Positions 46,115 through 49,115 are shown, counted from the first letter of the stretch. The stretch is 64,000 nucleotides of DNA from Natronococcus occultus SP4 (GCF_000328685.1 NC_019974.1:735001-799000), one strand, 5' to 3'. The notes: generated from the sequence alone by a model not told the origin. Numbers and translations are program-made.

Positions 46115-47479
46115 TCAGGCGATAATCGAGAGCTCCTCGTCGTCGCCGTCGTTCTCGTCGTCCACGTCGTTATCCTCCTCGGGCTCGTCGTCGATCTCCT
46201 CGTCGAGGGCCTCCTCGAGTTCGTCCATATCGAGGGTGATCGTCTCGGCGGTCGAGTCACCGACCGTGAGCACCGACGCGGAAGCCTGCGTGACGACTTC
46301 GTCCGCGGCCTCGTCGTTCTCTTCATCATCGTCGTTGGCGATTTCGTCGTCCTCGTCGTTAGCGACCCCGTCGTTCTCCTCTTCGTCGTCAGCAATGTCG
46401 TCGTCTTCTTCCTCGACGTCCTCGAGGGATTCGATGGTCATCGAGTCGAACGTGATCTCGTCGACGTCGAACTGCTCGATGGTTAGCTGCTCGATCTCCT
46501 GTGTCTCGACCTCGTCGTCCTCGTCATCGACTACCTCGTCATCGTCGTCGTTAGCGACGTCGTTCTCTTCGTCGTCAGCGACATCGTTCTCGTCATCGGC
46601 GATGTCGTCGTTCTCGTCGTCAGCGACATCGTTCTCTTCGTCCTCGTCATCGTCGTCGAAGATACCCTCGAACCAGTCGCCGATCTGGTCGATAATGCCA
46701 TCGTCCTCGACGGTCAGCTCGTCGATGTTCATCTCCTCGACGTCCATCGTCTCGATGGTGAGGTCCTCGACGACGAGTTCGTCAGCTTCCTCGTCGATCA
46801 GGTCGACGTCCTCGTCGTCAGCGACGTCGTTCTCTTCGTCGTCAGCGACATCGTTCTCTTCGTCGTCAGCGACATCGTTCTCGTCATCAGCGACGTCGTT
46901 GTCCTCGTCATCGGCAACGTCGTTCTCTTCGTCATCCATCATCTCATCGTCGTCGTTCATCTCGTCGTCAGCGACGTCGTTCTCCTCGTCGTCGGCGACA
47001 TCGTTCATTTCGTCCTCTTCGAGTTCGAGGTCTTCCATCGTCACGTCCTCGAGTTCGAGCGACTCGATCTCGACGTCGGTAAGCATGAGTTCCTCACCAA
47101 CGTCATTGTCCTCGTTAGCGATATCGTTCTCCTCGTCGTCGACGACGTCATTCTCTGCATCGTCGGCAACGTCGTTTTCTTCGTCGTCAGCGACGTCATT
47201 TTCCTCCTCCTCGACGTCGTTCTCCTCATCGTCGTCGAGTTCCGCCTCGAGTTCCTCTTCGTCGACGTTGAACTGTTCGACGTTGAGTTCCTCGATCGTC
47301 GCGTCCTCGACGGTAACGCTATCGAGGTCGAGTGTCTCGACCTGTACGTTCTCGAGTGTTACGCTCGTGTCTCCGGCGTCGCTCGTGCTTACGGACGCTC
47401 CGGCGAGGCTAGCTCCTCCCGAAAGAGCGACCATGAGTACGACGAACACCACGCCAAATTGCTGCAGTCGTGGGACCAT
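46115..47479 (-). CDS. Secreted acidic-repeat protein A
   Basis: 454 residues. The start MVPRLQQFGVVFVVLMVALS is a Sec signal peptide with likely cleavage near AGAS, about residue 28. The mature chain alternates two elements. Beta-rich modules carry short hydrophobic strand patterns (VTLENVQVETLDLDSVTVED, ELVVEDLTIETMDVEEM, IEQLTIEQFDVDEITFDSMT). The linkers are very acidic, made of variants of ENDVADDE with about sixteen NDV tripeptides. There is no C-terminal span, no Cys and no sorting signal. At DNA level it is a coding 24-base minisatellite. A Ca2+- or other cation-binding surface protein is possible. No family is recognised. Confidence 0.85.
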   Translation of the reverse strand: MVPRLQQFGVVFVVLMVALSGGASLAGASVSTSDAGDTSVTLENVQVETLDLDSVTVEDATIEELNVEQFNVDEEELEAELDDDEENDVEEEENDVADDEENDVADDAENDVVDDEENDIANEDNDVGEELMLTDVEIESLELEDVTMEDLELEEDEMNDVADDEENDVADDEMNDDDEMMDDEENDVADDEDNDVADDENDVADDEENDVADDEENDVADDEDVDLIDEEADELVVEDLTIETMDVEEMNIDELTVEDDGIIDQIGDWFEGIFDDDDEDEENDVADDENDDIADDENDVADDEENDVANDDDDEVVDDEDDEVETQEIEQLTIEQFDVDEITFDSMTIESLEDVEEEDDDIADDEEENDGVANDEDDEIANDDDEENDEAADEVVTQASASVLTVGDSTAETITLDMDELEEALDEEIDDEPEEDNDVDDENDGDDEELSIIA

Positions 47480-47776
47480 GCACCTCGGCCTACAGCCAGA
47501 CCGAGACTAAAGCGAGGGGACTGTTACATCATTATTTTCGGGAAAATATCGATTAGTGCCGGCGACGGACGGCCGGGCTGTGAGAGAAGAAAGTTAGTGG
47601 AAATCAGCCACTTTGTGGAGCAGAATCCTTGTTGTGCTTGCGATTGCTGCAATATTATTTCAGAGCAATGTGAACGAGAGCTTACCAGGATATTCGATCG
47701 GCGAAAAACGAACGACAGGTTCGATCGAGGACTCGATCGAACCGCGAACGGCGATCCGCGCTTGGGGCCGTCCCGA
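47480..47776. other. Spacer between the twin acidic-repeat genes
   Basis: 297 bases with no protein gene. The part nearest gene A (to about 47546) aligns without gaps to the region before gene B and is its promoter. The rest (about 47547-47776) is AT-richer and shows no recognised feature. Confidence 0.6.
47521..47546 (-). promoter_or_regulatory. Shared promoter block, gene A copy
   Basis: CTGTTACATCATTATTTTCG and following bases (plus-strand notation) match 49090-49115 in sequence and in distance to the start codon. AT-rich core suggests the TATA and BRE region. It indicates that A and B are controlled alike. Confidence 0.55.
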
Positions 47777-49048
47777 TTAGCTCAGGATCGACGGCAGTCC
47801 GTCGTCGTTCTCGTCATCGTCGTTGAGCAGGCCATCGTCTTCATCTTCGTCCTCGTCGTCATCTAGCAGGTCGTCGTCATCCTCGTCGACATCATTTTCT
47901 TCAACGTCGTCGAGTTCGTCGGCGTCGGCGAGTGTGAGCGACTCGACGGTCGCGTCACCGATCTCGATCATCGACGCGGAGGCCTGCGAGATGGTCTCCT
48001 CGTCGTCAGCGACGTCGTTCTCCTCGTCATCGGCGACATCGTTCTCCTCGTCGTCAGCGACGTCGTTCTCCTCGTCGTTGGCAACGTCGTTCTCGTCGGC
48101 TTCTTCGACCGACTCGACGGTCATCGAGTCGACGTCGATCTCGTCGACGTCGAACTGCTCGATGGTGAGTGACTGCATCTCCTGGACGTCGTTGTTCTCG
48201 TCGTCGGCGACGTCGTTCTCCTCATCGTCGGTAACGTCGTTGTTCTCGTCGTCAGCGACATCGTTCTCGTCATCGGCGACATCGTTCTCTTCGTCGTCAT
48301 CCACCATCTCGTCGTCAGTTTCCTCGTCGTCAGCGACGTCGTTCTCCTCGACGGTCAGATCGTCGACGGTCAGCTGTTCGACGTCCATCGATTCGATGGT
48401 GAGCTCTTCGATGGTGAGCTCGTCAGCGTCCTCGTCGAACACGTTCGTTTCGTCGTTCTCGTCATCGGCCATCATCTCGTCGTCAGTTTCCTCATCGTCA
48501 GCGACGTCGTTCTCCTCGTCATCCATCATCTCGTCATCATCCATCATCTCATCGTCGTCGTTCATCATCTCGTCGTCAGTTTCCTCGTCATCGGCGACGT
48601 CGTTCTCAGCGTCCTCCTCGAAGTCCTCCATCGTCACGTCCTCGAGTTCGAGCTGGTCGAGCTCGATATCGGTGATGGTGACCTCGTCGGCCTCCTCGTC
48701 GTCAGCGACGTCGTTCTCCTCGTCATCGGCGACATCGTTCTCCTCGTCATCGGCGACGTCGTTCTCCTCGTCGTCCGCTTCATCGGCGTCGTTCTCCGCA
48801 TCGATAGCGTCCTGGAGTTCCTGGACGTCAGCGTCGAACTCCTCGACGTTTAGCTCCTCGATAGTCGCGTCCTCGACGGTAACGCTATCGAGTTCGAGTG
48901 TCTCGACCTGTACGTTCTCGAGTGTTGCGCTCGTGTCTCCGGCGTTGTCGGTCGCGCTCGTGGACGCTCCGGCGAGGGCAGGACCCCCCGAGAGAGCGAC
49001 CATGAGTACGACGAATACCACGCCGAGTTGCTGCGGTCGTGAAACCAT
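47777..49048 (-). CDS. Secreted acidic-repeat protein B
   Basis: 423 residues, a paralogue of protein A. Same signal peptide (MVSRPQQLGVVFVVLMVALS), same first module (NVQVETLELDSVTVEDATIE), and again alternating beta-rich modules (TITDIELDQLELEDVTMED, ELTIEELTIESMDVEQLTVD, QSLTIEQFDVDEIDVDSMTV) with ENDVADDE and DDEMMD repeats, about sixteen NDV tripeptides. The C-terminal DEDEDDGLLNDDDENDDG is extremely acidic. No anchor is visible. It lies 297 bases upstream of A on the same strand and shares its promoter sequence, so the pair arose by duplication. Function unknown. Confidence 0.85.
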   Translation of the reverse strand: MVSRPQQLGVVFVVLMVALSGGPALAGASTSATDNAGDTSATLENVQVETLELDSVTVEDATIEELNVEEFDADVQELQDAIDAENDADEADDEENDVADDEENDVADDEENDVADDEEADEVTITDIELDQLELEDVTMEDFEEDAENDVADDEETDDEMMNDDDEMMDDDEMMDDEENDVADDEETDDEMMADDENDETNVFDEDADELTIEELTIESMDVEQLTVDDLTVEENDVADDEETDDEMVDDDEENDVADDENDVADDENNDVTDDEENDVADDENNDVQEMQSLTIEQFDVDEIDVDSMTVESVEEADENDVANDEENDVADDEENDVADDEENDVADDEETISQASASMIEIGDATVESLTLADADELDDVEENDVDEDDDDLLDDDEDEDEDDGLLNDDDENDDGLPSILS

Positions 49049-49089
49049 GCGTAACGGGGTACACCCAACCCGAGAGTAAAACGAGACGA

Positions 49090-49115
49090 CTGTTACGCCA
49101 TTATCGTCGAGAAAA
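49090..49115 (-). promoter_or_regulatory. Shared promoter block, gene B copy
   Basis: CTGTTACGCCATTATCGTCG and following bases (plus-strand notation) match the block before gene A. Both sit about 42-67 bases before the respective ATG. Confidence 0.55.

Follow-up and report, generated by a model that had tools for sequence, protein, structure and literature searches.

The locus at positions 46115-49048 of the window, the 64,000-nucleotide stretch of the Natronococcus occultus SP4 genome that we analyzed (NC_019974.1:735001-799000), raises a simple question: in a pair of proteins with about 50% Asp plus Glu, what is being kept, the acidic repeats or the segments that they separate? Two adjacent genes had been predicted here from the sequence alone, and both ORFs lie exactly where they were placed, on the minus strand (Table 1). 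A and B are paralogues, with 77% identity in the first 82 residues, the common N-terminus of the original prediction, and 64% identity across the module residues described below. Counted from residue 29, the mature part of A has 426 residues, 217 of them Asp or Glu, and that of B has 395, 196 of them Asp or Glu; neither contains any Lys, Arg, His or Cys. The expected lack of cysteines is thus real, and the NDV tripeptide, expected about 16 times per protein, occurs 16 times in each. Without Lys and Arg, the mature parts would yield no usable tryptic peptides, a possible reason for the proteins having been overlooked.

Differences between A or B and their orthologues in a named Natronococcus genome (L032) pile up at codon position 3 (for the B modules, 12, 5 and 38 differences at codon positions 1, 2 and 3), which identifies the minus-strand frame as the real one. 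The same comparison gives 0-3 gapped codons in the modules against 61-75 in the linkers. Position-3 bias and gap contrast together indicate that A and B are real and in frame, and that modules and linkers are under different constraint. The 24-base coding unit that had been proposed is likewise in frame and varies synonymously: the 10 NDVADDE units of A use seven DNA spellings, and the 12 of B use six. Relatives keep everything in frame. Two long Ser-rich antisense ORFs on the plus strand (46236-47510 and 47823-49079) were rejected as shadows of GAN-rich codons; substitutions follow the minus frame.

Table 1. Features of the two genes, in coordinates of the window
Feature	Position	Strand	Basis
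Gene A (downstream paralogue, adjoins NUDIX gene)	46115..47479	-	454 aa ORF; third-position bias vs orthologue
Gene A promoter core AACAGTCCCCTCGCTTTA, ends 28 nt before ATG; CTTTA TATA-like	47508..47525	-	
Gene A signal peptide, Sec-type (about residues 1-28)	47396..47479	-	sequence; kept in relatives
Gene A M1 (residues 40-81), 6-7 pentads	47237..47362	-	module HMM 76 bits
Gene A M2 (residues 130-155)	47015..47092	-	module HMM 41 bits
Gene A M3 (residues 225-260)	46700..46807	-	module HMM 59 bits
Gene A GIIDQIGDWFEGIF, short hydrophobic/amphipathic segment after M3	46658..46699	-	alignment
Gene A M4 (residues 326-356)	46412..46504	-	module HMM 60 bits
Gene A M5 (residues 394-425)	46205..46300	-	module HMM 56 bits
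Gene B (upstream paralogue, adjoins tgtA-like gene)	47777..49048	-	423 aa ORF; third-position bias
Gene B promoter core AACAGTCGTCTCGTTTTA, ends 28 nt before ATG	49077..49094	-	
Gene B signal peptide, Sec-type (about residues 1-28)	48965..49048	-	sequence; kept in relatives
Gene B M1 (residues 41-82)	48803..48928	-	module HMM 82 bits
Gene B M2 (residues 122-147)	48608..48685	-	module HMM 47 bits
Gene B M3 (residues 201-236)	48341..48448	-	module HMM 64 bits
Gene B M4 (residues 288-318)	48095..48187	-	module HMM 62 bits
Gene B M5 (residues 351-383)	47900..47998	-	module HMM 61 bits

Each protein has five modules, M1-M5, with roughly 25 pentads in total and a register common to all five: hydrophobic, polar (mostly Thr), hydrophobic, acidic, any. 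M1, for instance, reads in fives as VQVET LDLDS VTVED ATIEE LNVEQ FNVDE, and M5 is the ASASxxxIGDATAExxTL segment. Modules span 4-7 pentads with a period of exactly five residues, and the longest run in both A and B is 7. The core position i is I or V in 67% of pentads and L or F in 21%; position i-2 is mostly L or V, also M, and i-1 is mostly T. Pentads in runs of at least three number 19 in A and 24 in B; in 2000 shuffles the mean was 0.3 and the maximum 7. The modules called beta-type in the original prediction are real, five in each protein, but their pentapeptide-like five-residue register had been overlooked.

One of each module, in the order M1-M2-M3-M4-M5, was found in all 47 complete Natrialbaceae members examined, a count of sequences rather than of independent lineages, since some strains are represented more than once or by near relatives. 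Identity between proteins for the same module is 55-76%, while different modules inside one protein are 26-55% identical. Because same-module likeness at least equals, and mostly far exceeds, other-module likeness, each module is a part in its own right rather than one of a set of interchangeable beads. A segment such as GIIDQIGDWFEGIF follows M3 in gene A and most A-position copies and is missing from B and most B-position copies, so the A and B copies are not simple duplicates. The non-random modular architecture that had been suggested is upheld by the register, the kept module order and the codon-position-3 bias. The regular spacing suggested with it holds for the number and order of modules, which are fixed, but not for the linkers, whose lengths are irregular (29-69 aa in A and 13-183 aa across the family). 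In one outer relative (L073) the M1-M2 and M2-M3 linkers are 7 and 15 aa long.

The linkers are 54-60% Asp plus Glu and almost free of Lys and Arg, and their unit varies with lineage: ENDVADDE in A and B, NGVDD in Natrialba and Natronorubrum, and units rich in N-x-S/T in Natrinema and Halopiger. The ENDVADDE repeats, real as they are here, are not the defining feature, because close relatives have NGVDD, DEMM or DNET-type linkers in their place. Linkers are Thr-rich in outer relatives, where DNES-, EETTTEED- and TTTAAA-types occur. N-x-S/T sequons are absent from the linkers of A and B and number 6-33 in 12 relatives. In about a dozen relatives the linkers consist almost wholly of such sequons, and nearly every linker Asn sits in one (33/33, 32/33, 29/29 and 25/25 in sequon-rich members, with 4-8 expected). 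The more acid a member's linkers, the fewer sequons they have (rho -0.76 between sequon number and acid fraction, among members related by descent, so that its p-value is not literal). Among named genomes, Natrinema zhouii and Halopiger djelfimassiliensis are sequon-rich, and those of Natronococcus, Natronorubrum, Natrialba and Halobiforma, all alkaliphilic genera, are sequon-poor. A tie between sequon-poor linkers and alkaliphily is only a lead, because two genomes assigned to Natronococcus (G004 and G008) are sequon-rich. We also considered whether the linkers of a genome's two copies evolve in concert and dropped the idea, there being no clear excess over the copies of other genomes.

Profile searches found relatives in most of the Natrialbaceae genomes sampled, often as a tandem pair, and weaker relatives in several other haloarchaeal families of the same order. 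Every match in 247 sampled genomes of the phylum fell within that order, and none was seen outside it in this sample. A and B thus belong to an unnamed family found across haloarchaea. No family had been recognised in them at first reading, and indeed no curated Pfam or NCBIfam model passed its cut-off for whole A and B or for the outer relatives tested. A Vps4_C match at E 0.06 in these searches was taken as chance. Searches of Rfam and of named plasmids gave no match, and a search of open-access papers found nothing on this family.

The locus itself is conserved. Wherever the named loci are long enough, the order is a tgtA-like gene, B, A, a NUDIX gene and a PadR-like gene, the neighbors being what we take them to be by sequence recognition. 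Four nearly complete Natrialbaceae genomes, one of them in Natronococcus, have no detectable copy (G007, G013, G040 and G041), and some lineages can therefore do without the genes. In one genus (g8; G237:C2, G223:C2, G251:C5 and G347:C2) the two copies are not in tandem; they lie ~30-45 kb apart in opposite orientation, which suggests rearrangement between copies. Among other relatives, two (L074 and L075) are compact, at ~250 aa, with short linkers and with Lys and Arg present, and are well suited to structural study. Seven (L064, L066, L067, L069, L070, L073 and L078) have an extra C-terminal Ig-like stretch after M5, CARDB/Transglut_C-like by eye; L073 and L078 give weak matches to Pfam Transglut_C and NPCBM_assoc.

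By inspection, the N-termini of A and B have the short N-region, hydrophobic core and small-residue cleavage site of a Sec-type signal, without a lipobox Cys or twin Arg. These features are conserved in 21 diverse relatives and agree with the secretion that had been predicted; cleavage in A was placed, again by inspection, after LAGA. No C-terminal transmembrane anchor or lipobox was seen in A or B, as expected from the earlier reading: both lack Cys and end in a short SIxx instead of a hydrophobic span. In most Natrialbaceae members (e.g. L037, L038 and L045) the acid tail is followed by a short conserved hydrophobic peptide like SIAALx, possibly a recognition or last-strand element. Some pentapeptide-repeat proteins inhibit gyrase by mimicking DNA, a role that we rejected for A and B because of their signal peptide.

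The promoter is conserved along with the proteins. A block like GTAACAGTCGNCTCGTTTTAG stands at a fixed distance from the ATG, ungapped and with its core ending 28 nt short of the start codon, in all 26 upstream regions inspected, which bears out the common promoter of the original prediction. The exact pattern AACAGTCNNNTYGTTTTA has 31 matches in 61 genomes, every one in front of a family member by position, and its reversed control has none in the same genomes; gene A departs from the exact pattern, with GCTTTA. The TTTTA of the promoter core fits the haloarchaeal TATA motif, TTWT, and most haloarchaeal mRNAs are leaderless (PMC4983044). The promoter of A and B is dedicated and probably leaderless, and its specificity to the family points to common control of the two genes. 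As a key to a wider regulon the motif was set aside: at this stringency it is private to the family, hence no partner genes are named. In many members another short element is conserved 5′ of the promoter core; it is TTCTAA-like and lies ~75-80 nt from the ATG.

The five-residue register invites comparison with pentapeptide-repeat proteins. In a single-sequence search of the PDB, M1 had seven matches, all to pentapeptide-repeat proteins or to the 'beta1' series, whose chains we take to be designs based on them; the best was weak (E 0.01). M1-M3 of an outer relative, searched as one uninterrupted stretch, matched mostly pentapeptide-repeat chains. Fully shuffled M1 gave no match, and M1 shuffled with the register kept matched only pentapeptide-repeat chains, so the likeness comes from the register and not from residue-level homology. 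Judged on sequence, this is fair evidence for similar folding and poor evidence for membership among pentapeptide-repeat proteins. Pfam Pentapeptide_4 matches L073 weakly, the best relative scores 21.5 bits against a Pfam pentapeptide model with a cut-off of 38, and no Pfam pentapeptide model was found for A, B or their modules. Published usage requires at least eight contiguous pentapeptides, with the consensus (A/C/S/V/T/L/I)(D/N/S/K/E/I/R)(L/F)(S/T/R/E/Q/K/V/D)(G/D/E/N/R/Q/K) (PMC8145042). The pentads of A and B largely fit it at i-2 and i+1 but not at i and i-1. By sequence, then, A and B lie outside the definition, on Pfam score, on the rule of eight repeats and on the L/F consensus alike, and at most they work like a pentapeptide-repeat protein. 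With L or V at i-2 and I or V at i, against the published A.. and L/F, the classical quadrilateral core may not fit. Pentapeptide-repeat solenoids can have outward loops of 6-13 residues, and some members have a signal peptide (PMC8145042); insertion at a corner thus has precedent, though not at the linker length of A and B.

Fold prediction adds little on whether A and B form a right-handed quadrilateral beta-helix. AlphaFold2 models of gene A and of a shorter gene B orthologue have mean pLDDT of 42 and 43 and pTM of 0.21 and 0.17, scores that make neither model usable; strands at M3 and M4 in the gene A model were set aside, and the orthologue model has no strands. Since the input was 19 sequences and the repetitive acid linkers are hard to align, we read these scores as no information rather than as disproof. 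Foldseek with the gene A model gave no matches. A PDB profile search with the N-terminal part gave two weak matches, a DNA primase chain and a putative adhesin, and no pentapeptide-repeat chain.

The explanation that we prefer, and to which we give an even chance, is that M1-M5 together build a single beta-solenoid with breaks in it, and that charged or glycosylated loops stand out from this core to form a hydrated brush outside the cell. The Sec signal would take A and B out of the cell, where the modules would stack as one small solenoid, with four long loops breaking up its coils and an acidic tail coming after them. The loops would be disordered and hold most of the charge (about -217 for the mature chain of A and -196 for that of B), so that in brine a compact core of modules would carry a hydrated polyanionic brush, with up to ~200 negative charges, that attracts counter-ions. 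A single stack is favored because the number and order of modules are constant, because each module position has its own sequence and because outer relatives have short linkers (L073) or compact 250-aa forms (L074 and L075). Relatives fit the one scaffold with linkers that are acid, Thr-rich, or rich in sequons and probably N-glycosylated; selection would keep that scaffold and strongly hydrated, hydrophilic linkers rather than any particular linker sequence. Such interchange suggests that hydration and bulk are what matter, and it favors a coat on the cell envelope, as a surface or matrix layer, over specific metal binding; such a coat is the likely role of A and B and the least certain step of this explanation. 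We propose, more tentatively, that beta-solenoid coils systematically interrupted by long, freely exchangeable brush loops (polyacid, N-glycan-bearing or Thr-rich), with scaffold and promoter fixed, are a new architecture.

The chief rival reads the chain as beads on a string, in which five independent small beta units, or sticky strands pairing between molecules, are held apart by acid linkers acting as extended spacers; A and B would then be an elongated fibre or a gel-forming matrix protein, in line with the elongated shape first suggested for them. Modules of 4-7 pentads spread along a chain with linkers of up to 183 aa look the part, M3 and M4 are 55% alike, and AlphaFold2 did not gather the five modules with confidence. 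We nevertheless think it unlikely, given that the number and order of modules are invariant in 47 members with position-specific sequences, unlike typical bead-type repeats, that a linker can be as short as 7 aa in outer relatives, and that a single module makes ~1-1.75 coils, short for a stable fold alone. Somewhat more doubtful is that the same brush is borne by a beta-solenoid of another type than the pentapeptide-repeat one, or by a protein of amphipathic strands. The core residues (L, V or M at i-2 and I or V at i) do part from the published consensus (PMC8145042), and the profile search with the N-terminal part found the primase and adhesin chains instead of a pentapeptide-repeat one; but an exact period of five with 4-7 repeats per module fits five-residue faces best, and single-sequence PDB searches do return pentapeptide-repeat chains.

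Two further alternatives concern the linkers. With ~200 acidic side chains and no positive ones, they might bind Ca2+ or Mg2+ specifically, cation binding being a possibility raised at first reading, or they might govern how carbonate or halite crystallizes on the cell. This is improbable, as relatives trade many of the acids for N-x-S/T or Thr, which would weaken a dedicated metal site, and the Pfam search returned no calcium-binding family. It is very hard to credit that the acid repeats are a selfish minisatellite, slippage products tolerated since acidic residues are harmless in salt-adapted secreted proteins. Such an origin would suit the 24-base tandem units, their frequent indels and the change of unit type between lineages, but the units vary synonymously, and the open frame, the absence of Lys and Arg and the module order are kept across the family. 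In the sequon-rich version nearly all Asn are in sequons, which slippage alone explains poorly across different units.

If the interrupted solenoid with its brush of loops is the right reading, A and B represent a widespread, unnamed class of exported haloarchaeal proteins in which fixed charge is replaced by glycosylation sites on one scaffold, and they pose a testable question, namely which physical property salt-loving cells need from their surface polymers. Solenoids with a five-residue register would be extended to an exported, loop-carrying form, a natural scaffold tolerating very long insertions. The family-specific promoter would give a clean handle on when such proteins are made.

Of known systems, pentapeptide-repeat proteins (PF00805 and PF13599; Np275/Np276, Rfr32, HetL and QnrB1) share with A and B the hydrophobic positions i-2 and i, the polar i-1 and the variable i+2. 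They differ in run length (at least 8, against a longest run of 7 here) and in residue i (L/F, against I/V), and the present family stands apart in its linkers of 13-183 aa, against loops of ~6-13, in being exported and in being about half acidic. The luminal domain of SV2C, an animal synaptic vesicle protein, is listed as a pentapeptide beta-helix (PMC8145042). Likened by description only, it would share with A and B a non-cytoplasmic beta-helix of the pentapeptide kind, as proposed here for the latter, although it is part of a membrane protein. It is glycosylated and is not known to be interrupted by long acid or sequon loops. From its general description, Halomucin of Haloquadratum walsbyi is a large secreted acidic protein of the cell surface, credited with keeping a hydrated coat; set beside A and B on that description alone, it is much the larger and has another build. 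Secreted low-complexity proteins of the acidic or mucin-like sort have the same repetitive, hydrophilic stretches, highly charged or glycosylatable, but in A and B each stretch has a set place between conserved modules whose order does not change.
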